Of a DNA stretch of 64,000 nucleotides, positions 17,515 through 47,572 are shown one piece after another. This DNA is from Endozoicomonas numazuensis (GTDB lineage Bacteria > Pseudomonadota > Gammaproteobacteria > Pseudomonadales > Endozoicomonadaceae), in NCBI RefSeq assembly GCF_000722635.1, contig NZ_JOKH01000001.1, forward strand, positions 1,298,573 to 1,362,572, given 5' to 3'. Numbering within the stretch: position 1 is the first letter of the stretch; every line of letters starts with the position of its first letter. A program made the position numbers and the translations under genes. A model generated the notes under the pieces. It worked only from the letters and a program-made list of their open reading frames with translations. It was not told the origin of the DNA and did no database searches.

Positions 17515-20205
17515 TCAACCTGCCTGAGCGGCCAGCGCTTTTTCGGCTTCGGCTGCTTTGGTTTGTGCTTCAATCAGAGCTGCTTCCAGAGCACTGGTAT
17601 CGCCTTCTGCGTTCTCCAGTGCCCGTTGTGCTTTCTTGACCGCTGCTCTGGCCATGGCGTTCTCGATTTTCAGTTTTTTGAGATCATCGCCGACTTGAAT
17701 TTTGGCTGGAGACGAAGGTTTAGTCGCTTCAGGCTCTGTCACTGAGACTGATGGTTTACCTTGTTCCAGTTTTTCAAGCTTGCCACGACATTCGTCTACT
17801 TTTTCCTGAAGTGATGCGGTGTCATCTGAACCCGATTCCTGAGCTTTGACCCGTTCGCGCTGAGCTTTCTTCAGTGCAGCTTTGGCTATTGCCTGTTCGA
17901 TCTTGAGTTTTTTATCGTCGGCAGGCTCAGGTTGCTTCGTCTGTTGGGTATCAGCAGAAGATATATCCGGTTTTGCAGATATCAGAGAGTCAACTTTCTT
18001 TTGGCTCTCTTCCACTGCCTTTTCCAGTGCAGATGTTTCTGGGCTGCCTTCCTCTCTGGCTTTATTCAAGGCTCGTTCTGCTTTCTTTAAAGCAGCCTTG
18101 GCCATTGCCTGCTCTACTTTAAGCTTTTTCTCATCAACGGAAGGTTTGGCAGGTTTTTCTGTGGTGGTGCTAGCTAATGCATTGGCCAATGAGTCTGCTT
18201 TCTTACGGCACTCTTCCACCGCTTCCTTCAGTGCTTCAGTTTCTGAACTGCCTTCTTCAAGTGCGGATGCCAAAGCCCGTTCCGCTTTTTTCAATGCTGC
18301 TTTCGCCATCGCTGATTCTATTTTCAGTTTTTTGATGGCTTCAGCGTCCTGGGCCGTTTCTGTTTTAGGGGGGGCTGCGGACGCTGTTTCAAATTCTTTC
18401 TGTAATTTGGCAACCTGGTTTTCCAGCATGCTGACATCAGCACTTAACTTGTCAGCATCGCCTTCTCCCGATTCCTGAGCCTGACTCAAGGCTCTGCGGG
18501 TTTTCTTCAGCTGGGCGTTGGCCAGAGACAGCTGGATTTTAAGCTCTTTCTGATCTGCAGACAGTGCTGCTTTAGTGGACTTGTTACCGGCTGAACCTGC
18601 AGCAGCTTTTTTTGCCTTGGCTCTTTCAATAGCCGCTTGAACGGGGTCTATTGTTGTTCCTTTATTACCTGAAGACATTTTACCGGCCGAAGATTCTTTC
18701 TCTGCCTTTAGCTTGGCAGCGCGTTCAGCATTCGCCCGGCGCTTGGCTTCTTTTTCAGCTTGCTCTTTTTCCAGGCGGGCTTGTCGGTTTTCGTAACGGA
18801 CTTTAGAGCGTTCAGCTTTGGCGTGTTTGGCTTCCTGAGTCCGGATTTCACCTTTGGAAGCCCGGTAGTATTGGACCAGTGGAATACTGCTGGGGCAGAC
18901 GAAGGAGCATGCACCGCATTCAATACAGTCAAACAGATTGTGGTGTTTCAGTTGTTCATGGTTTTCAGACTTTGCATGCCAGTAGAGCTGCTGAGGTAGC
19001 AAAGACGACGGACAGACTTCTGCACACATACCGCATCGAATACAGGCTTGGGCAGGCATGGCGGAAGGAAATTCTTCCTGTGTACCTGCTATCAGACAGT
19101 TGGTGGTTTTAGTGACGGGGACATCGAGTTCATTCAATGTGAAACCCATCATAGGCCCACCCATAATGAGTGTTGCCAGCTGCTGATCGTTTGCGCCAGC
19201 AGAAGACAGCAGGTGTTGCGTAGGGGTGCCTAATAGCACTTCAAGATTACCCGGGCGAGCCAGTGCTTCACCCGTCATGGTTGTGATTCTTGAAATCAGG
19301 GGTTTGCCATGTTGAACAGCATCATAAACAGCGACAGTTGTGCCCACGTTTTGAACTGCAATGCCGAGGTCCGAAGGGAGTTTGCCAGAAGGTACTTCGA
19401 GCCCTGTGAGTATCTGAATCAGCTGTTTTTCACCACCTGAAGGGTATTTGGTTGGGAAAACAACCACTTTCATCTGATGACTGTGGCTGTTTTGGGCAAC
19501 GGCTTTCTTAACAGCAGCTATGGCTTCTGGCTTGTTATCTTCAATACCTATCAGGCAGCGTTCGGCATTCAGGAGGTATTGTAAGATTCTGGCACCGGCC
19601 ACCATACTGTCGGCACGTTCTCTCATGAGCATATCGTCTGCAGTGATATAGGGCTCACACTCGGTGCCATTCAGTATCAAGGTGTGTATTGGGCTTCTTG
19701 GAGACAGTTTCACGGCGGTAGGAAAACCTGCACCGCCCATGCCGGCAATACCCGATTGGCGAATATGTTCAATCAGTGTTGAAGGTTCTACAGAGGTGTA
19801 ATCTCTTATTGGTTTAAGATCGCACCACTGGTCTTTTCCATCAGGGATTATTGTAATGCACTCGTCGTGCATGCCAGAAGGGTGAGGTATCGCTTCAGAA
19901 CGGATTGCTGCAATGCTACCAGAGGTAGGGGCATGAACAGGCACACTGACGAAACCGGTAGCTCTGGCAATCATCTGTCCTTTTAATACTTGTTGGCCAA
20001 CAGTGACGACAGGTTCAGCAGGCGAGCCTGCATGTTGCGACAGAGGAAGAATTAATTTCTCTGGCATGGGGGCCGGTTTGATCGGCGTGCCAGTCGATTG
20101 ATGTTTGTTTTCTTCTGGGTGAACACCACCGGTCAGTGGCCAGACTCGCTGTCTGGATTCAGTGATGTCCTTGAGAGGCAGGTTCATACGATCTGATGCG
20201 TTCAA
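17515..20205 (-). CDS. rsxC: Rsx/Rnf electron transport complex subunit C with repeated Ala/Lys-rich tail
   Basis: An 896-residue peripheral subunit that accepts electrons from NADH through FMN and iron-sulphur centres. The first 450 residues are a standard RnfC: a nucleotide/FMN Rossmann part with [12 protein letters not shown] at about 155-166 and two [4Fe-4S] motifs, [12 protein letters not shown] (about 387-398) and [12 protein letters not shown] (about 427-438). The remaining half is a charged tail with five imperfect repeats of about 50-60 residues, each beginning near [20 protein letters not shown]. This predicts long helices or coiled coils. Such tails vary in length among gammaproteobacterial RsxC proteins. 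The start overlaps rsxB by 4 bases. Confidence 0.95.
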
Positions 20206-39773: not shown

Positions 39774-40355
39774 TTATGCAGGGTATGAGGGGCAGGTCAC
39801 AAGGTGGTCGTTCACCATGCCCATGGCTTGCATGTAGGCATAACAGATGGTGCTGCCGACAAATGAAAAACCTCTTTTCTTAAGGTCTTTGCTCATGGCG
39901 TCGGACTCGGGTGTGGTAACCGGTACTTCTGATAACGATTGCCATTGGTTCACTACGGGAGTGTGATTAACAAAAGACCAGATGTATCGGTCGAAGCTGC
40001 CAAATTCTTCCTGTATTTTCAGAAAGGCTTTTGCGTTTTTTATAGCGCTGTTCACTTTCAGCCGGTTTCTTACAATGCCTTCATCCAGCAAGAGTCTTTC
40101 TACGTCTTGATCGGTGTATTGAGCAACCATGTTCGGGTCAAAGCCAGCAAAGGCCTTGTGATAGCCTGATCTGCGTTTGAGGATGGTGATCCAGCTAAGG
40201 CCTGCCTGGGCGCCTTCCAGAATCAGGAACTCAAACAGTTTTTGATCATCATGACAAGGAACTCCCCATTCTTCGTCATGGTATCGGATGTAGTCCGGGT
40301 CATTGGTGCACCACGTACAACGTTGATTTGTCAAAAGAATGACTCCCGTTTTCAT
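39774..40355 (-). CDS. tag: DNA-3-methyladenine glycosylase I
   Basis: A 193-residue base-excision repair enzyme that removes 3-methyladenine from alkylated DNA. The zinc-site and substrate pocket start is RCTWCTNDPDYIRYHDEEWG at about 12-31. The conserved block FEFLILEGAQAGLSWITILKR at about 41-61 and the C-terminal FVGSTICYAYMQAMGMVNDH at about 163-182 are diagnostic. Length is normal (E. coli 187). The start may be the ATG at 40355 or a later codon; the first eight residues are not conserved. It is transcribed toward the perfect hairpin shared with hsdR. Confidence 0.95.
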   Translation of the reverse strand: MKTGVILLTNQRCTWCTNDPDYIRYHDEEWGVPCHDDQKLFEFLILEGAQAGLSWITILKRRSGYHKAFAGFDPNMVAQYTDQDVERLLLDEGIVRNRLKVNSAIKNAKAFLKIQEEFGSFDRYIWSFVNHTPVVNQWQSLSEVPVTTPESDAMSKDLKKRGFSFVGSTICYAYMQAMGMVNDHLVTCPSYPA

Positions 40356-40459: not shown

Positions 40460-43400
40460 ATGCCATCCCAAGCTTCATCATCTGGCTCTGTTTTGCCACC
40501 AACATCGCCTCGTTTACCGGATGCGTCCCCATCAGACATTGTTGCTTCATCAGACATTGTTGCTTCATCAGGCTTTCGGGATGTTTCTGTCGTTGAAGGT
40601 GAGAAGGGGCTTACCTCTTCAGATGATGAAGACTGGCACACCCCGCCTCAGAGCCTGGACACCCGAAATCCTCAGATAGTCAACGCGCAACCCTTGATTC
40701 AGATCGATGAGACACCTGCTCTTGCTGAAGCAGCTCCGGAAGCCTCTGTCATCGCAAACCCCGCTCGGCCTCAAATCAAATCGAGTCTGTTTGAAAGGCT
40801 GTTGGCCTCAGTCATTATCTGGGTGCTGGACTTTAAAAAAGTACGAGCAAAAGTAAGCTTTCGAAGGGCAGTTGTTGTCAGGCAGCTGAACAAGCAATTG
40901 AAATGGGTCAGAAAGGCTATTCGTAATAAGCCCGGAAAGAAAACTCTGGATGAGCGCAGAGTCTTGAAAAGGCAGTTGATGCGCTTGCGCAAAGAGAAAA
41001 AGCAGGCAAGAGTCGCAAGAGATTATGAAATTCGTAGCTATCTCAAACTGTTTCGAGCGCTAAAAGCTTTGCATAAAGGGCAAATACAGGAGCATACCGT
41101 TCACCTTGACGGATTGGCGTTGCAAGGCGACAAAGCCACCTTAAGAAATGTTGAATTAAGAGTCCATAAGGTGGAGCTGGTGGATTCGGATACAGGTGAA
41201 ACCTACCCTAAAATCACGGTGGATATTAAAGGTTCTGTTGACGTAAATGCGCCTGGTCAGCGCCCTCTTAAGATGGACGTTGAGATCAAGGATATGGAAA
41301 CCAGTATTCAGGGCAGGATGGTTCCTGGCATTAATGCCTATATCAGTGGGAAGGGCGTTACGGGCCTGTTTAAGGCTCTTCATCGTATACGTAAACAGAA
41401 AGGAAAATTCTTCCAACTGAGTAGAGCAGGGATCTCCATCGGAAAAATAAAAGCCTCTCTGGATGAGCTTGATCCAAAAACCCTGATTGCGATCAAAGGG
41501 AACTCGAAGACTACGTTAAAAGAGGATGTTAGCAAGGCGTTTTCTGTTCTGGGGCATCCATTTGATCTGACGGTGGACGAACTTGAAGTCGCCCGGAAAG
41601 GAGTTGTAGCGCCACTGGCAAAAATGGAAGCACTCAAGCTGGCCTATGAACTTAAACCCCTGGATCAGAGAGAAGGAGAGACGGAAAGAACACTGACGGT
41701 TAAGGCGGGTGTGATAGATGTTGATACCGGAGGTGTTTCTGATGCTCTGTATGGTGCTGCCCGAGAGAAAAGACTTAAACCTATGGGCTTAATGCTATCT
41801 GACACTGCTAACAACTTTGACTGGATTTCTGAACTGGAAAAGCAGTCCGCCGGACTCAGGGCTGAAACCAGGGAACTTAGCCTTGAAGTAAAGGTGCATG
41901 TATCAAAAGACGCAGAAGGGCAGATGGTTGTCGGGGATTCTCATGTGGAATTCGGTTCAGACCATATAATGCTTCGGAACAAGGGGGCTGCAAAAGTACA
42001 TATGGATCTGGATGGGGTTCATCTGGAAGGTGATCTGACCGGTGAGAAAACAGAATTTAGTGGTCATGCAACAGCTTGTTCAGGTGGCCTGGAGCTAAAT
42101 CAGAAACTGGGGACTGGCACCGGTAACCGCATTGATTGTCACTCAGACTTTACTGGCCAGGGTGTCAAAGTGTCCGGGACTCTGCAGAAGGGGCAGCTTA
42201 CAACAGATGTAGGGGCTGAACGGTTAACGGTTGATACTCATGGCCATCCCTCTTCCATACACCTGGGTAATACTCGAATTGAGCTGCCAGGAAATCTGAG
42301 TGGGCAGATGCAGGCGCTATCAGTTTGCCTCAAAGCTGATCAAAAAAGCAGTTCTGAATTAAAGGCGGGTGCAGGCAAGACTCATTTCTCAGGTAGTGGG
42401 CAGGTGGTTGTTAACACCCAGACCAGTAAATTGTCTGTTCCCGTTCGCGGCAATGTAACACTGGGTCATTGTGAGATCACGACAGAGAAGTTCAAAGAAG
42501 GCGATTTAAAGCAGCCTGTAACGGTCACTGAAGTCACTCCGGGTAATCTCAGTATTGATGGGGTCAAGGCCAGCTCTGTCAAGGTTGGGAATCTGACCAC
42601 AGAGCTGGATGAGCAGCGTTCCGGATTTGTTCATCTGAACGATATTTTTGTGGATGGCGATGACCTCATTAAAGATCTGGAGCTTCTTCCAGAAGCCTCT
42701 CGAAAAAAAATACCCACAGGTTTTCTGAAGGGTAGAAAGTTGAAAGCCTCAGTAAAAGTGAAGGTAGAGAATGGTTTTATCGATCCAAAAACAGCAGAGT
42801 TTGTTTCCTGTGACCTGAACGAAGAGGATGTGGATACATCAGCCTGGACACAGTGGGAATCTTGGAATCAATGGTTCAAAAGTGGTCTTATCAATGCTGC
42901 CAAGTGGGCTTCGGTCAAGGGCATGAGTGTGGTGAATGGACAGCTCTTTATCTCAATGGGGGTTGGTCCCGTGAGTTATCCTATTTCTGTCATGAAGGTT
43001 CCGGCGGAAGCCGTTCGAGGCGAAAAGCTATCTTTGCCCGTTTTACTGCATCACTACACGGGAGTTTGTTGGGGCGAAACTTCAAAAGATGACAAGACAG
43101 TGATCGATAAGATTAATGCAGGAGATTTGCAAGCTTTGTCGACGCTGATCCCTTATTGTCGTCGTGCAGGGCCTGACCGTGGTGAGCGCATATTGAAGAA
43201 ATTGCAGCTGGAGCCCTGGATTGAAAAATCAAAAGGTGGGGATCAGCTCGCCACCAGTTATTTAAAAACGTTAACAGGGCTTTTATTTGAGTACCCGGGC
43301 ACAGCAGGTCGTGGTCTTATGTTATTCAGAAGTCTTGGGTGGTCTATTACCCAGCCTCTTGCTGAACTTCTGTTAAAACCACCTTACCGGACTGAGATTG

Positions 43401-44098
43401 ATCCTGTAGCTCTGGCTCTTTCAGTCTCTGAGCTAGGTCTGTACAACGAAGCACTCGAAGTTATGGACGAAGCGCTAAAGAAGAAGCCCGACGATCCACG
43501 ACTTAATTTTCATGCATGCATCGTTTTAAGAAATTGGGTCAAATCGATCAAGCCAGGCAGCATGAGAGAAGATGATAAAGAATATCTGGTTATTCAGTCT
43601 GCCCGCAGGCTGTCAGCTGCAGCCAGAAAAGGTTATCCCGCAGCGCAGTTACTTCAAAAACAATTATGTAATGAAGAAGAGCCTTATGCATTACTGGCTG
43701 AAGCTGGTTCACTATTGACCCATGTTCATCAACCATCTGCTTTCTATAAAGCGCTGAGTCGACTAGAGCAAATGGCAGCACTGGGAGAGAGTGTTAAGGC
43801 GAGGGTTGCTAAATCTATTCTGGCCAACAGAATTGAAAACAGCCGGAAAATCTTTATTCATCCCACTGCCAAGGTTGAAAAGAGTATCCATGAGCTGGAA
43901 AAACGGATTAAACATAAAGGAGTGCATGGCACCAAGCCTGACGAACTGTACAGGCTGGGTATACGGTACCTCTATGGCATAGAAGGAAAAGTCTCCAACC
44001 CTGCCAGAGCTATCCAGCTGTTGAAACAGGCCAGAGATCGAGGTGAATCCAGAGCTATGCTGCATTTGGAGCTGGCAGAGTCGGTCGTGGCTGATTAA
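40460..44098 (+). CDS. Very large hypothetical protein (1212 residues) with beta-rich core and helical-repeat C terminus
   Basis: I do not recognise a family. Residues 1-105 are disordered and rich in Ser, Pro and acidic residues, with a tandem SDIVAS duplication encoded by an 18-bp repeat (40532-40567). A short hydrophobic helix (LFERLLASVIIWVL, about 110-123) is followed by about 80 strongly basic helical residues. From about 210 to 800 the sequence is a long run of alternating beta strands (HLDGLALQGDKATLRNVELR and on), resembling AsmA/TamB-type or other repeating-groove proteins. Residues 830-1212 are helical with TPR/Sel1-like stretches (GLYNEALEVMDEALKKKPDD; YLYGIEGKVSNPARAIQLLK). It has no classical signal peptide. 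Its stop abuts the convergent ABC gene. Confidence 0.85.
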   Translation: MPSQASSSGSVLPPTSPRLPDASPSDIVASSDIVASSGFRDVSVVEGEKGLTSSDDEDWHTPPQSLDTRNPQIVNAQPLIQIDETPALAEAAPEASVIANPARPQIKSSLFERLLASVIIWVLDFKKVRAKVSFRRAVVVRQLNKQLKWVRKAIRNKPGKKTLDERRVLKRQLMRLRKEKKQARVARDYEIRSYLKLFRALKALHKGQIQEHTVHLDGLALQGDKATLRNVELRVHKVELVDSDTGETYPKITVDIKGSVDVNAPGQRPLKMDVEIKDMETSIQGRMVPGINAYISGKGVTGLFKALHRIRKQKGKFFQLSRAGISIGKIKASLDELDPKTLIAIKGNSKTTLKEDVSKAFSVLGHPFDLTVDELEVARKGVVAPLAKMEALKLAYELKPLDQREGETERTLTVKAGVIDVDTGGVSDALYGAAREKRLKPMGLMLSDTANNFDWISELEKQSAGLRAETRELSLEVKVHVSKDAEGQMVVGDSHVEFGSDHIMLRNKGAAKVHMDLDGVHLEGDLTGEKTEFSGHATACSGGLELNQKLGTGTGNRIDCHSDFTGQGVKVSGTLQKGQLTTDVGAERLTVDTHGHPSSIHLGNTRIELPGNLSGQMQALSVCLKADQKSSSELKAGAGKTHFSGSGQVVVNTQTSKLSVPVRGNVTLGHCEITTEKFKEGDLKQPVTVTEVTPGNLSIDGVKASSVKVGNLTTELDEQRSGFVHLNDIFVDGDDLIKDLELLPEASRKKIPTGFLKGRKLKASVKVKVENGFIDPKTAEFVSCDLNEEDVDTSAWTQWESWNQWFKSGLINAAKWASVKGMSVVNGQLFISMGVGPVSYPISVMKVPAEAVRGEKLSLPVLLHHYTGVCWGETSKDDKTVIDKINAGDLQALSTLIPYCRRAGPDRGERILKKLQLEPWIEKSKGGDQLATSYLKTLTGLLFEYPGTAGRGLMLFRSLGWSITQPLAELLLKPPYRTEIDPVALALSVSELGLYNEALEVMDEALKKKPDDPRLNFHACIVLRNWVKSIKPGSMREDDKEYLVIQSARRLSAAARKGYPAAQLLQKQLCNEEEPYALLAEAGSLLTHVHQPSAFYKALSRLEQMAALGESVKARVAKSILANRIENSRKIFIHPTAKVEKSIHELEKRIKHKGVHGTKPDELYRLGIRYLYGIEGKVSNPARAIQLLKQARDRGESRAMLHLELAESVVAD

Positions 44099-45436
44099 CT
44101 ATTGCAATTTATGCAATACTTCAACGACCAATGAAGTCTGGATGTGTTTTTTGATGAGCGAATCAATTTTTTGAGTATTACTATGGTCAAGGTTTGCATC
44201 CCATTCATCCAGAAGAAGAAAGTCATCGTTGCGATCAAGAATATACTCCAGATTTTTTAGTTGAACCTCTCCAGTGGAGTTTGAGCGTGTTTTCTTGCCT
44301 AAAAAATCAATACTGGACTGATAAAGCCATGCATTTGGTAATAGTGTCTTAATCTGTTTCAGGTAGGAGGTTTTTCCACTTCCATTTTTCCCTGTAATTC
44401 TATATCTCCCTTTGTTGATTTTTTTTTGAATAACCCGTTCCATAAAATCATCAGGCTGGATTGTTTGACGCCTTTCCAAATCTTCAATAACCAGGTTATA
44501 GGGAGTGGAGGTAAAGTCTACTTCAAATGGTGTGAGCTTATTCTGAAAGTGGATTAATTCTTGGTGTTTGGAACGAAGGAGAATCGCTCGACTGCTCATG
44601 ATATTTAAGTCGTGAACGTAAGCGAAGAATTGAAGTGATCTTGGTAGTACCGCTACAAGAGCACCATAAAATGAAGCCTCTTGCTCTCCAGTAAGAATAA
44701 TGGTCGAAACTATGATTATGATTGATAAGGTGATAGGTGCGCTGGTAGCCAGTTGTTCAAGTGAAGTGTATTTTGCATTGAGATCAAAAAAATGCTGAAG
44801 GCGCTTGAAATGTTTTTTTGATTCATTGTTCTTTTGATTTTCAGGTGCGCAGTAGTGATTGTTCCATAAAACGTCTAAACAACTATTGATGTTGAGTTTA
44901 CTGTTCTGTATTTCTTTTCCTGATTTCTTGAAGCTTTCTTTGAATAAGAGCAGTGATAGAAAAGAAAGCATTAGTCCAAGGGCACATGCTATCGAATATG
45001 TTGGCCCAAGGGTTAACCAGAAAACGATTAGCGTTAGAATTACGCCTAAGTACGTCGAGTAAAGTTCAAGATGACATTTTATAAATTCTTCTAGTGTTTG
45101 GTTCGATTCTCCCGAGAGCCAAGCAAAAGTCTTGTCTTTGTTATCACGGGTATTGTACTTTTGTTGACTGTCCAAACGGTTAAAAACAAATTGATAGTAG
45201 TTTTTGATTGAATGATTGATCGACAGTGTTGTGAATATTTGGGCGATAGAGCTGATGAGGTAACCTGACAAGGCGCATAGGAAAAAGTAGACAACAAAAC
45301 GAGTTGCTGCATAAAAGTTGAGCTCGGCTACAGAAATCCCCGCTTTTGCTATCAGCCATGTAGAAGCAGCAATAGATACTTGTTGGGTAGTTATAAGAGA
45401 AAGACTGATTATTGTGTATTTGTTATTAGTGATCAT
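44099..45436 (-). CDS. Compact ABC exporter half-transporter with degenerate signature
   Basis: A 445-residue fusion of membrane and ATPase domains. Residues 1-280 hold about five to six hydrophobic helices of an exporter-type domain. The ATPase part has Walker A GKNGSGKT (349-356), a possible Q-loop Gln at 373, Walker B FLLLDE (406-411), D-loop NLD and the switch His at 442 (EVLHKLQ). The signature is NSTGEVQ (386-392) instead of LSGGQ. It is 100-150 residues shorter than usual exporters and lacks a C39 peptidase domain. It overlaps the upstream 179-residue gene by 4 bases. The AT-rich composition suggests acquisition. A substrate made by the same cassette is likely. Confidence 0.85.
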   Translation of the reverse strand: MITNNKYTIISLSLITTQQVSIAASTWLIAKAGISVAELNFYAATRFVVYFFLCALSGYLISSIAQIFTTLSINHSIKNYYQFVFNRLDSQQKYNTRDNKDKTFAWLSGESNQTLEEFIKCHLELYSTYLGVILTLIVFWLTLGPTYSIACALGLMLSFLSLLLFKESFKKSGKEIQNSKLNINSCLDVLWNNHYCAPENQKNNESKKHFKRLQHFFDLNAKYTSLEQLATSAPITLSIIIIVSTIILTGEQEASFYGALVAVLPRSLQFFAYVHDLNIMSSRAILLRSKHQELIHFQNKLTPFEVDFTSTPYNLVIEDLERRQTIQPDDFMERVIQKKINKGRYRITGKNGSGKTSYLKQIKTLLPNAWLYQSSIDFLGKKTRSNSTGEVQLKNLEYILDRNDDFLLLDEWDANLDHSNTQKIDSLIKKHIQTSLVVEVLHKLQ

Positions 45437-45972
45437 AGCCTGGTCAGAAAGAACATTAAGGTTAATGTCAGTGCAAGAAAGATAGATAGAAAAATGCTTT
45501 TGATTAATAATTGCTTCTTGTAAGACTGGATCAAATTTTTAGCAGAATTAACTTGTTTTTTTATATTTTTCGGCTTTGAATCTTTGAACATCTCTATGAA
45601 GGTTTTTAGGAAAGTTATCCTTTTGAAAATACTGTAATGCTCTGGGTTTAGAAAAACCAGGTCGTCAACAGTTAATGCTCTCACAATTAAACAGGGTGTC
45701 TCTGTTCTAAGGGGGTAGTAGTCAGGACAGTGAATACTGGGGGATTGGTTGATGCTATAGGTTGCGCCTATCATTAGCTGTCTTTTGACGTATTTAACCT
45801 TTCCTTTCCTTTGTAACTGTAAAAGTTTTTTTAAATCGAAGTCAAAAGGGAACATTTTTCCCTTTCTGAAAGGGTGATCAAGGACAAGAAATTCTCTTAT
45901 GTATTCACGGATAGCTGGATACACCGATTTTGCGCCAAGATGTGCAGGTTTTTGAGAAAGCGTCCAGATCAT
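45433..45972 (-). CDS. Tail-anchored hypothetical protein, partner of the ABC transporter
   Basis: A 179-residue basic protein with a soluble N-terminal region of about 150 residues and one C-terminal membrane helix (SIFLSIFLALTLTLMFFL, about 158-175). This implies a cytoplasm-facing tail-anchored topology. No family is recognised. Notable segments are REYIREFLVLDHPFRKGKMF, LMIGATYSINQSPSIHCPDY and LIVRALTVDDLVFLNPEHYS. Its stop overlaps the ABC transporter start by 4 bases, and the 48-residue peptide gene lies 76 bases upstream on the same strand. It could be a maturation, immunity or transporter-accessory protein. That is inferred only from the layout. Confidence 0.75.
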   Translation of the reverse strand: MIWTLSQKPAHLGAKSVYPAIREYIREFLVLDHPFRKGKMFPFDFDLKKLLQLQRKGKVKYVKRQLMIGATYSINQSPSIHCPDYYPLRTETPCLIVRALTVDDLVFLNPEHYSIFKRITFLKTFIEMFKDSKPKNIKKQVNSAKNLIQSYKKQLLIKSIFLSIFLALTLTLMFFLTRL

Positions 45973-46049
45973 TCGTACACCCTACGACTTGAAACCATAG
46001 ATGATGATAAAATTCACATAACCCCAAAGGGAATGTAACTCTTAAATAT

Positions 46050-46196
46050 CTACCATTTCCAGCTGTCTTCAGCCGATTTTTTGCTGAAAGGAAAACGCAA
46101 GAATCTTTTGAAACCTAAAGATCGCTGAACCAGTCTCTTGTCTTTATCTTTGAATGGGCGGGTAAACCGTGGTTCTAAGGCGCTAGAGTATTGCAT
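46050..46196 (-). CDS. 48-residue cationic peptide, first gene of the ABC cassette
   Basis: A short frame below usual gene-caller limits: ATG at 46196, stop TAG at 46050-46052. The peptide runs MQYSSALEPRFTRPFKDKDK, then RLVQRSLGFKRFLRFPFSKK and SAEDSWKW. It has 13 Lys/Arg against 5 Asp/Glu, seven Phe, two Trp and no Cys, so it is cationic and aromatic. AAGG lies 9 bases before the ATG, and a promoter with TTGACA is about 55 bases upstream. It is followed by the tail-anchored protein and the ABC exporter on the same strand. A secreted peptide or RiPP-type precursor is a reasonable inference, but no double-Gly leader is evident. Confidence 0.6.
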   Translation of the reverse strand: MQYSSALEPRFTRPFKDKDKRLVQRSLGFKRFLRFPFSKKSAEDSWKW

Positions 46197-46229
46197 GAGT
46201 TTTTACCTTAACTTTCATTAGCAGGTAGC

Positions 46230-46257
46230 AGTTTAGGTGGTCGCTAAATGCTGTCAA
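46230..46257 (-). promoter_or_regulatory. Promoter of the peptide/ABC cassette
   Basis: On the minus strand, TTGACA (46257-46252) is a perfect -35 box. After 16 bases follows TAAACT (46235-46230), a four-of-six match to the -10 box. Transcription would start near 46222, giving a leader of about 26 bases before the ATG at 46196. Confidence 0.6.
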
Positions 46258-46339
46258 GCCAAGTTGTTAACTGCGAAATGCATTTGGCTGCCGCGATTTT
46301 TCATGTTTGTTTGAGGGTGGCGCAAAATATTGTTCTCGA

Positions 46340-47572
46340 TTAGTAACGCTTTTTCCTGAAAGCATAAGACCCCATATTACCCAGTGTTTGCAGAAGTACA
46401 TTCCATCCGGAAAGCTGGGTGTTGGGCTGTTTGCCTTTCCCCATCAAAGACAGCTGGGCTTCATACCAGGTCAGATCCAGCATGGCTATTTTATCCAGTA
46501 TTTCAATTCCCGTAGACTTGAACTGAACGGTTGTTTTGAAGTCAGGGTTATTAATAACTTGTTGTGGCAGATCTGGTTGCATGGCCATGGGTCTGCCCAA
46601 ACCGATCATATCGCAGGCATTTTCCTGCAGTGCCGCACGCATGGCTGGTGCGGAGCGGAATCCACCCGTCACAACCAGCACCTTATCAGTGTGTTGTCTG
46701 GCCTTGATGGCATACTCAAGAAAGTAAGCTTCCCGCTTCAATGTGCTTTCTTTCAGGTCTATCCCCATCATGGCAGGGGATTCATAAGTGCCACCAGACA
46801 CTTCGATCAGATCAATTCCGGCTTCTGATAAAGCCTGGACAACCTTCATGGATTCTTCTTCTGAAAGGCCGTCTTTCATAAAGTCTGCAGAATTTAATTT
46901 GATGCCAATAGGAAATGAATCACCTACGGTGTGTCGTATAGCCTTGAAAACGTCGAGCACAAACCTTTGTCGATTCTCCGGCGAGCCCCCCCACTGGTCA
47001 TTTCTCTGGTTGTGCCTTGGAGAAAGAAACTGGTTGACCAGGTAGCCATGGGCTGAGTGTATTTGTACCCCCTGAAAGCCCACTTCTTTAGCCAGACGAG
47101 CGGACGTCGAGAAAGCTTTTATAACGTCGTTTATTTCTTGTTCAGTCATGGCTCTGGGTTTTTTAAAGCCTTTTTCCAGTTCACCTTCCAATGCGATAGC
47201 GGAAGGTGCCAGAGGCTCACTGCTCATGAATGAAGGGATCTGTTTGCCTGGATGATTCAGCTGGGCCCAGAGTTGAGTGTTGTTCACCGTACCGTGGCGA
47301 ACCCATTCACGAAATATTGAAAGGTCACTCTTCTGGTCTAAAACCACATTTTTGGGCTCACCTAAAGCATTTCTGTCTACCATCAGGTTGCCAGTCACAC
47401 AGATCCCTGTCCCGCCTTTTGCCCATGTCTCGTAGAGTTTGAAAAGCTCTGGGGTAGGATTATGGTCTCGATCACCTAATTGTTCGCTCATAGCGGCTTT
47501 GAAAAAGCGGTTCTTGATCGTAACAGAGGTGGTCAGGTGAAGATCTGAGTCCAGATGAATATCTGTGGGCAT
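46340..47572 (-). CDS. NADH:flavin oxidoreductase, old yellow enzyme family
   Basis: A 410-residue FMN-dependent TIM-barrel oxidoreductase. Family motifs are TIKNRFFKAAMSEQLGD near residues 18-34, GTGICVTGNLMVDRNALGEP at about 54-73, and IHSAHGYLVNQFLSPRHNQR at about 166-185 with the following WGGSPENRQRF. These match the class related to YqjM/2,4-dienoyl-CoA reductase N-terminal barrels and reduce activated C=C bonds. There is no C-terminal FAD/NAD domain. It appears to be a single gene. The natural substrate is unknown. Confidence 0.93.
   Translation of the reverse strand: MPTDIHLDSDLHLTTSVTIKNRFFKAAMSEQLGDRDHNPTPELFKLYETWAKGGTGICVTGNLMVDRNALGEPKNVVLDQKSDLSIFREWVRHGTVNNTQLWAQLNHPGKQIPSFMSSEPLAPSAIALEGELEKGFKKPRAMTEQEINDVIKAFSTSARLAKEVGFQGVQIHSAHGYLVNQFLSPRHNQRNDQWGGSPENRQRFVLDVFKAIRHTVGDSFPIGIKLNSADFMKDGLSEEESMKVVQALSEAGIDLIEVSGGTYESPAMMGIDLKESTLKREAYFLEYAIKARQHTDKVLVVTGGFRSAPAMRAALQENACDMIGLGRPMAMQPDLPQQVINNPDFKTTVQFKSTGIEILDKIAMLDLTWYEAQLSLMGKGKQPNTQLSGWNVLLQTLGNMGSYAFRKKRY

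Follow-up and report, generated by a model that had tools for sequence, protein, structure and literature searches.

In darobactin and other ribosomally synthesized and post-translationally modified peptides (RiPPs), aromatic cross-links are formed at positions i and i+2. Short precursor, oxidative maturase and transporter are also the elements of the pfl and pos RiPP pathways, whose maturases are alpha-ketoglutarate-HExxH (aKG-HExxH) beta-hydroxylases (PMC12636437). Proteins of the DUF6875 or 'cytochrome P422' type (ZigI and relatives) have been described as heme-binding tryptophan oxidases (PMC13307353), and AglA is a cysteine-ligated heme enzyme, discussed together with the YqcI/YcgG heme-dependent guanidine hydroxylases GntA, DcsA and ChmN (PMC12866846). 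Here we describe a locus in 64,000 nucleotides of Endozoicomonas numazuensis DNA (contig NZ_JOKH01000001.1, positions 1,298,573 to 1,362,572; hereafter the window) which combines features of these systems. A conserved peptide gene, a DUF6875 gene and a compact ATP-binding cassette (ABC) gene recur together at 13 further loci, also in distant bacteria; the divergent copy of this trio in the window forms a 2.27-kb segment without counterpart in a sister genome. We consider it likely, with a probability of roughly 0.7, that this is a horizontally acquired, RiPP-like cassette of three genes encoding a leader peptide, a heme maturase that acts on a C-terminal Trp-x-Trp (W-x-W) and an exporter.

The open reading frames (ORFs) for a 48-mer, a 179-mer and a 445-mer follow each other in this order on the minus strand of the window. 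A first-pass annotation, made from the letters and their ORFs, had described the same row and regarded small peptide, partner and exporter as one cassette, which is borne out by the 13 other loci; the first two ORFs are 77 bases apart (not 76, as had been counted), and the last two do share 4 bases (ATGA). A contig scan for relatives of the ABC protein gave 80 loci, and the ABC gene could be placed in 76 of them (not in L047, L054, L072 and L077), which are used for the counts. An ABC-linked DUF6875 gene was present at 8/76 loci, and all 8 had a short ORF directly upstream with a Shine-Dalgarno-like site and the end [GA]-W-[NK]-W. Termini of the W-x-W type are rare, as they were found in 15 of the 15,456 ORFs of at least 20 amino acids in the 80 loci, and 8 of those 15 are the peptides before DUF6875. 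A search with DUF6875 that made no use of the peptide, in plasmids and 398 genomes of the genus Pseudomonas, added five ABC-linked loci, with peptides ending in WRW (L085, a Moraxella osloensis plasmid), WSW (L086, a Methylophaga thalassica plasmid), WNW (L093 and L094) and WKW (L095). All 13 DUF6875 and ABC loci outside the window thus carry an ORF of 40-70 codons just upstream that ends in Trp-x-Trp (WNW in 6/13). The first-pass annotation had named a lack of short upstream ORFs at homologous loci as speaking against its reading, and the 13 loci show the opposite. No W-x-W ORF was found within about 1.5 kb on each side (a different span for L087) of 11 DUF6875 loci without an ABC gene, namely L087, L096-L100, L113, L114 and L116-L118, in which L087/L113/L114 and L096/L117 are near-duplicates. 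The Pseudomonas genomes with a DUF6875 match were 10: two already known (L002, from Pseudomonas sp. GD03858, and L006), three new and ABC-linked, and five distant ones without ABC. Three of the 42 matching plasmid records were examined (Moraxella, Methylophaga and one Rhizobium), and none of the other 39 (38 Rhizobium and one Streptomyces) was among the six plasmid records that match the ABC protein. Partner and ABC genes without a peptide, an arrangement that had been named as speaking against a cassette, were not seen in the 13 loci; the locus L007, with remnants only and no W-x-W, stands outside this count. In L007 (Pseudomonas caspiana, 1582-1950) a deletion has seemingly fused the leader region of the peptide to the DUF6875 tail, and the ABC gene is open.

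In an alignment of the 14 peptides M1, W46 and W48 are invariant and S8 and F11 nearly so, the leader consensus resembles M..[YF]S.P.S.AFT, and the middle varies freely in length and sequence. The ratio of nonsynonymous to synonymous substitution rates (dN/dS), proposed earlier as a check on conservation, was calculated among five Pseudomonas peptides and ranged from 0.13 to 0.46 for the five pairs whose dS was finite (it was saturated in the other five pairs); judged by these values, the relatives' peptides are under purifying selection. A short encoded peptide with conserved leader and core, beside a gene for a modifying enzyme, is what would be expected of a RiPP precursor, and with such a peptide upstream in 13/13 relatives the 48-mer is likely the precursor of the exported product, as had been supposed. 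The cationic character that was taken as its hallmark did not hold up, since the net charge of +8 is peculiar to the window (0 to +5 in the 13 relatives), and the conserved traits are the leader start and the C-terminal W-x-W. The alignment marks the 48-mer as a conserved peptide gene, and conservation in 13/13 relatives makes it more than chance. A chance ORF, for which it could be said that such sizes are common and that the promoter scores at chance level, was rejected on this ground and is, given also the invariant W-x-W and the purifying selection, extremely improbable. We also discarded the idea that the 48-mer is a frame-shifted beginning of the 179-mer, because the latter already has the N-terminus of a DUF6875 protein (its W3 is W5 of L006) and the peptide is a separate gene in the relatives. 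Two or three cysteines are present in the peptides of 11/13 relatives (L002, L004, L005, L006, L010, L012, L018, L086, L093, L094 and L095) and none in those of the window, L014 and L085; because of these cysteines, the product may contain a disulfide or thioether.

The 179-mer had been regarded as an unrecognised tail-anchored accessory protein, and is instead a shortened DUF6875 protein. It matches the DUF6875 profile, the family PF21780 that cassette proteins and P422 proteins have in common (PMC13307353), with 50.2 bits (E 4.2e-13, profile 94-175 of 178), above the gathering cut-off of 24.5, and the intact relative L006 scores 78.1 bits over profile positions 5-168. The C-terminal membrane helix noted in the first reading was confirmed, and a comparable hydrophobic segment is found in 10/12 relatives, being absent from L085 and L086 (L012 was outside this measurement). 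The cysteine of the [VM]CPF motif (Cys46) is invariant in 17/17 further members of the DUF6875 alignment, among them distant ones that have no ABC gene beside them; L099 was left out of this 17-row alignment, and the broken DUF6875 protein of L012 out of all protein alignments. L012 (= L090, L091), from Pseudomonas sp. LP_7_YM, keeps a W-K-W peptide and the ABC gene, and its DUF6875 frame is broken. A search of PDB sequences with the DUF6875 profile gave 0 matches at E up to 10, and the model of the intact relative shows a distant resemblance to AglA (root mean square deviation 3.1-3.5, 12-14% identity). With the ZigI-type proteins the cassette relatives share the invariant Cys of [VM]CP[FW], and an indole or tryptophan substrate is likely; they differ in their genetic link, which is to a ribosomal W-x-W peptide and an ABC exporter and not to small-molecule genes, and in having, in most members, a C-terminal membrane helix, and in the window copy the Cys and 52 residues are missing (PMC13307353). 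Compared with AglA and the YqcI/YcgG hydroxylases, the cassette enzyme belongs to a different Pfam family, and the substrate on the AglA side is of the arginine type (PMC12866846). In the PMC papers searched we found no report of a W-x-W peptide family tied to DUF6875 enzymes, although an earlier preprint report is possible.

These properties of the relatives bear on another explanation, in which the peptide is an unmodified cationic antimicrobial exported by the ABC protein, with the 179-mer serving for immunity or as an escort. Such plain bacteriocin export would agree with the charge of the window peptide, with the missing active-site Cys of the window copy, and with a 179-mer that is small and tail-anchored, as would suit an immunity protein. 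However, the relatives' DUF6875 proteins are full-length, with the invariant Cys and a possibly AglA-like fold, their peptides are neutral to mildly basic, and the invariant W-x-W has no obvious reason in an unmodified peptide, and we therefore regard this explanation as unlikely.

In the window itself the DUF6875 protein is damaged. Its relatives are 231-246 residues long (the broken L012 excepted), and it has the same N-terminus and C-terminal helix with an in-frame gap directly after the [VM]CPF motif, where residues 49-100 of L006, covering the elements H49-54, E58-62, H69-85 and E93-97, are missing. Phe41 stands in place of the invariant cysteine of [VM]CP[FW]. The fold appears incomplete, as the AlphaFold confidence score (pLDDT) is 67.5 compared to 92.1 for the intact relative and is low in the N-terminal half. 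Because 52 residues are missing and Phe replaces Cys, the window enzyme has probably lost its heme ligand and with it the heme chemistry, so that in the window the peptide may stay unmodified, or the system may no longer work. Of the 32 DUF6875 positions that are invariant in 12 relatives, none falls within the missing stretch and 29 are kept; the three substitutions are Cys46Phe, Ala134Ser and Leu137Ile. When, as a control, each intact relative was left out in turn, between 32/38 (L086) and 32/32 positions were kept, with L004 at 32/36. The core identity of the DUF6875 protein is below the value predicted from the ABC protein in 11/12 comparisons, by a mean of about 0.04 (residual standard deviation 0.039) and at most by 0.10, against L005. 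This pattern suggests that the protein was constrained for most of its history, perhaps with mild recent relaxation. On this view the Cys and the segment either were lost recently or can be spared in a non-catalytic role, and the protein is recently disabled or a pseudoenzyme.

It is quite conceivable, with a chance falling a little short of even, that the window copy, as distinct from the family, is a decaying remnant from which nothing functional is made, with a broken enzyme and the peptide and pump as leftovers, a view that is compatible with the reading proposed for the family. The deletion, the lost Cys, the low model confidence and the slight identity shortfall all agree with it, as does the decay of the cassette elsewhere (the L007 fusion, the broken frame of L012 and the ABC gene around an IS3 element in L104). 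On the other hand, none of the three frames is interrupted, the peptide still ends in W-K-W, and the DUF6875 and ABC proteins (54/57 invariants kept in the latter) have proportionally lost no more than L086 or L004 have.

The ABC protein shows five hydrophobic peaks, Walker A, signature, Walker B/D-loop and switch His, as would be expected of a half-size exporter, and G349, S387-G389, D410-W412 and H442 are invariant in 15/15 aligned proteins. Only 32 residues separate the Walker A Lys from the signature Ser, which would make the nucleotide-binding domain (NBD) compact relative to typical exporters. Its scores with Pfam ABC_tran and the NCBIfam models listed are below the curated cut-offs, and its PDB sequence matches are, among the best 60 of 282, partial and mostly to ABC-F and ABCB-type NBD stretches. 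Another, phmmer-linked partner cluster of proteins, mostly about 280-300 residues long, occurs at 23/76 ABC loci, and 5/5 scanned members exceed the curated cut-off of TIGR04267, an aKG-HExxH-type peptide beta-hydroxylase. Six of eight such loci (L011, L013, L015, L016, L017 and L031) have a 41-43-codon ORF upstream, in three distinct sequences, L023 has one of 30 codons and none was seen in L043. A protein of about 360 residues lies in between at L013, L016, L017, L031 and L043, and the L013 copy has no Pfam match. The loci with ABC gene, peptide beta-hydroxylase and 41-43-codon ORF are probably a second undescribed RiPP type. As these other partners are peptide beta-hydroxylases, they support, independently of DUF6875, the view that the pump family serves modified peptides. 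The compact ABC family is in this way linked to the maturase type of the pfl and pos pathways; the maturase and peptide of the present cassette differ from theirs (PMC12636437). In the Moraxella osloensis plasmid pNP7-3 (L104:3001-5604) the ABC gene is annotated as two parts around an IS3-family transposase gene.

Two convergent host genes bracket the inserted segment. One encodes a 1212-residue protein (40460-44098) and the other an oxidoreductase (46340-47572), which we take to be of the old yellow enzyme type, and in the same-genus genome G006 both are present (75% and 88% protein identity, respectively) and adjacent to each other. In blastn the DNA homology to the sister locus L111 ends at window position 44082 (L111 5667) and restarts at 46351 (L111 5703), so that 2268 bp of the window correspond to 35 bp. 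A second genome of the genus, G001, has the oxidoreductase homologue followed within about 120 bp by a homologue of the window gene 39774-40355; the cassette and the gene for the 1212-residue protein are both absent from the interval. The cassette is AT-richer than its flanks, as first read, with a guanine-plus-cytosine (GC) content of 37.5% against a mean of 47.1% (standard deviation 2.4%) over 619 sliding windows of equal size. None of these was as low, the minimum of 37.6% necessarily overlapping or being near the cassette. In the sample of relatives only the window's own genome matched (1/58 for the DUF6875 protein and 1/58 for the ABC protein), the 57 others having no match at E up to 0.01 and up to 1e-8, respectively. 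The class sample gave 1/369 genomes, again the window's own, and the phylum sample 6/398, with five lacking ABC in addition to the window's own. In the family of Shimia sagamensis 1/295 genomes matched, which was L004 itself, and in that of Moraxella cuniculi 0/299, in a set that held no positive control; phage records had no match and viral contigs no relative. The ORF list shows no integrase within the inserted segment. The empty site in the sister genome, the relatives without matches and the AT-rich composition speak for a horizontal acquisition of promoter region and three genes together, and would make loss in the relatives less likely. Elsewhere in the window, the protein encoded at 17515-20205, presumably RnfC-like, has a long repetitive C-terminal region rich in Lys, Ala and Glu, which is probably the cause of the strong AT skew at 18001-19000. 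The features of the cassette are collected in the table.

Table. Features of the inserted segment, in window coordinates
Feature	Position	Strand	Basis
Whole inserted segment, 2268 bp (cassette and promoter region)	44083..46350	.	blastn against sister-species locus L111
Sigma-70-like promoter, TTGACA 46257-46252, 16-base spacer, TAAACT 46235-46230	46230..46257	-	10/12 matches
Shine-Dalgarno-like AAGG	46206..46209	-	9 bases 5' of peptide ATG
Precursor peptide, 48 codons; leader-like N half MQYSSALEPRFT (cf. M..[YF]S.P.S.AFT), C-terminal DSWKW	46050..46196	-	alignment with 13 relatives
C-terminal Trp-Lys-Trp, the conserved W-x-W end	46053..46061	-	W-x-W terminus in 13/13 relatives
DUF6875 protein (PF21780, E 4.2e-13), 179 residues, lacking residues 49-100 of L006	45433..45972	-	Pfam search and alignment
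Codon 41 (Phe where [VM]CPF has its invariant Cys) and junction of the in-frame deletion, behind Phe43	45843..45852	-	alignments, invariant analysis
Hydrophobic (membrane) helix, C-terminal, residues 159-177 of 179-mer	45442..45498	-	Kyte-Doolittle 2.26
Compact ABC half-exporter, 445 residues	44099..45436	-	54/57 invariant positions of 12 relatives kept
Walker A GKNGSGKT	44369..44392	-	ABC alignment
ABC signature STGEV, 32 residues past Walker A Lys	44264..44278	-	ABC alignment
Walker B / D-loop LLLDEWDANLD	44186..44218	-	ABC alignment

In the cassette as we propose it, the DUF6875 protein would bind heme through the Cys of [VM]CPF, as family knowledge suggests, would recognise the leader of the peptide and would oxidise the C-terminal W-x-W, the last of these steps being put forward here alone. 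The chemistry could be hydroxylation of the indole, since other DUF6875 enzymes are reported to hydroxylate indole, or a joining of both Trp side chains, since the spacing of the two Trp is fixed (i, i+2) around a free residue. A similar W-x-W at the presumed modified site is known from darobactin-type RiPPs, whereas the cassette motif is at the extreme C-terminus and the window segment has no radical SAM (S-adenosylmethionine) or P450 gene. The ABC half-exporter would then export the product, with most of these DUF6875 proteins tethered beside it by their C-terminal membrane helix, and the leader would be removed by an unlinked protease. For the window, the damage may be recent, or the protein may persist as a leader-binding escort that hands the unmodified peptide to the exporter, both being suggested by a protein that otherwise keeps nearly all family invariants. 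Only tentatively, and with somewhat more doubt than we attach to the decay of the window copy, do we go further and suggest that these cassettes form a new class of RiPPs. In it a Cys-ligated heme enzyme that is no P450 and has an AglA-like fold would cross-link or hydroxylate the two Trps at the W-x-W end of a ribosomal peptide, and a compact ABC exporter would be dedicated to the product; the window enzyme would have lost its heme site and be kept under constraint as leader-binding escort.

Several points weigh against the proposed cassette. In the window enzyme the Cys and two of the fold's strands are missing and the core identity is slightly low, as described above, and the window peptide has diverged to 16-31% identity with its relatives. 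The AglA match is distant, a Foldseek search by itself found nothing in the PDB at E of at most 0.001, and the equivalence of Cys44 in AglA to Cys46 comes from aligned ranges and conservation, not from a residue-level superposition. The ABC gene occurs with no recognised partner at L003, L008, L009, L019 and L020 and on the plasmids L104 and L105; the first five showed no DUF6875 or W-x-W remnants, other peptide types not having been searched for. The annotated Shine-Dalgarno was found, and so were the promoter hexamers, whose score is at chance (1 site against a mean of 1.0 in shuffles of the region), and for this reason the promoter-like site is no evidence by itself. Product, bioactivity, transcript and heme binding are predictions for all members of this group. 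Neither a leader peptidase nor a recognised immunity gene is present in the cassette: the ORF list has no fourth gene, and hence no separate peptidase gene, in the inserted segment, and Pfam gives no peptidase family for any of the three proteins. The missing peptidase is not decisive, because a published RiPP cluster likewise has none nearby (PMC12636437). The named DUF6875 substrates are tryptophan-derived small molecules and not peptides (PMC13307353). This chemistry, the presumed modified site at the extreme C-terminus and the free central region would suit a W-x-W peptide that is a scaffold, its Trp modified on the peptide and later released as a small molecule, but the three-gene window segment has no further enzymes to release or elaborate such a molecule, and an exporter-type pump adjoins the peptide/DUF6875 pair in 13 relatives, which leaves the scaffold improbable, about as much so as plain bacteriocin export.

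The finding is thus stronger than the first-pass annotation in that a conserved peptide family is linked to a heme-enzyme family, and weaker in that the maturase of the window is probably non-catalytic. The cassette ties an undescribed peptide family to a heme family whose description comes from a small-molecule pathway. P450s and radical SAM enzymes perform oxidative tryptophan chemistry on ribosomal peptides, and if the proposed reading is true for the intact relatives, they would provide a further route to it. It would also be a minimal set of three genes, transferable as is to E. coli, in which the invariant W-x-W gives one defined site for mass spectrometry. The window copy, in turn, is a natural test for a second, non-catalytic role of the enzyme.

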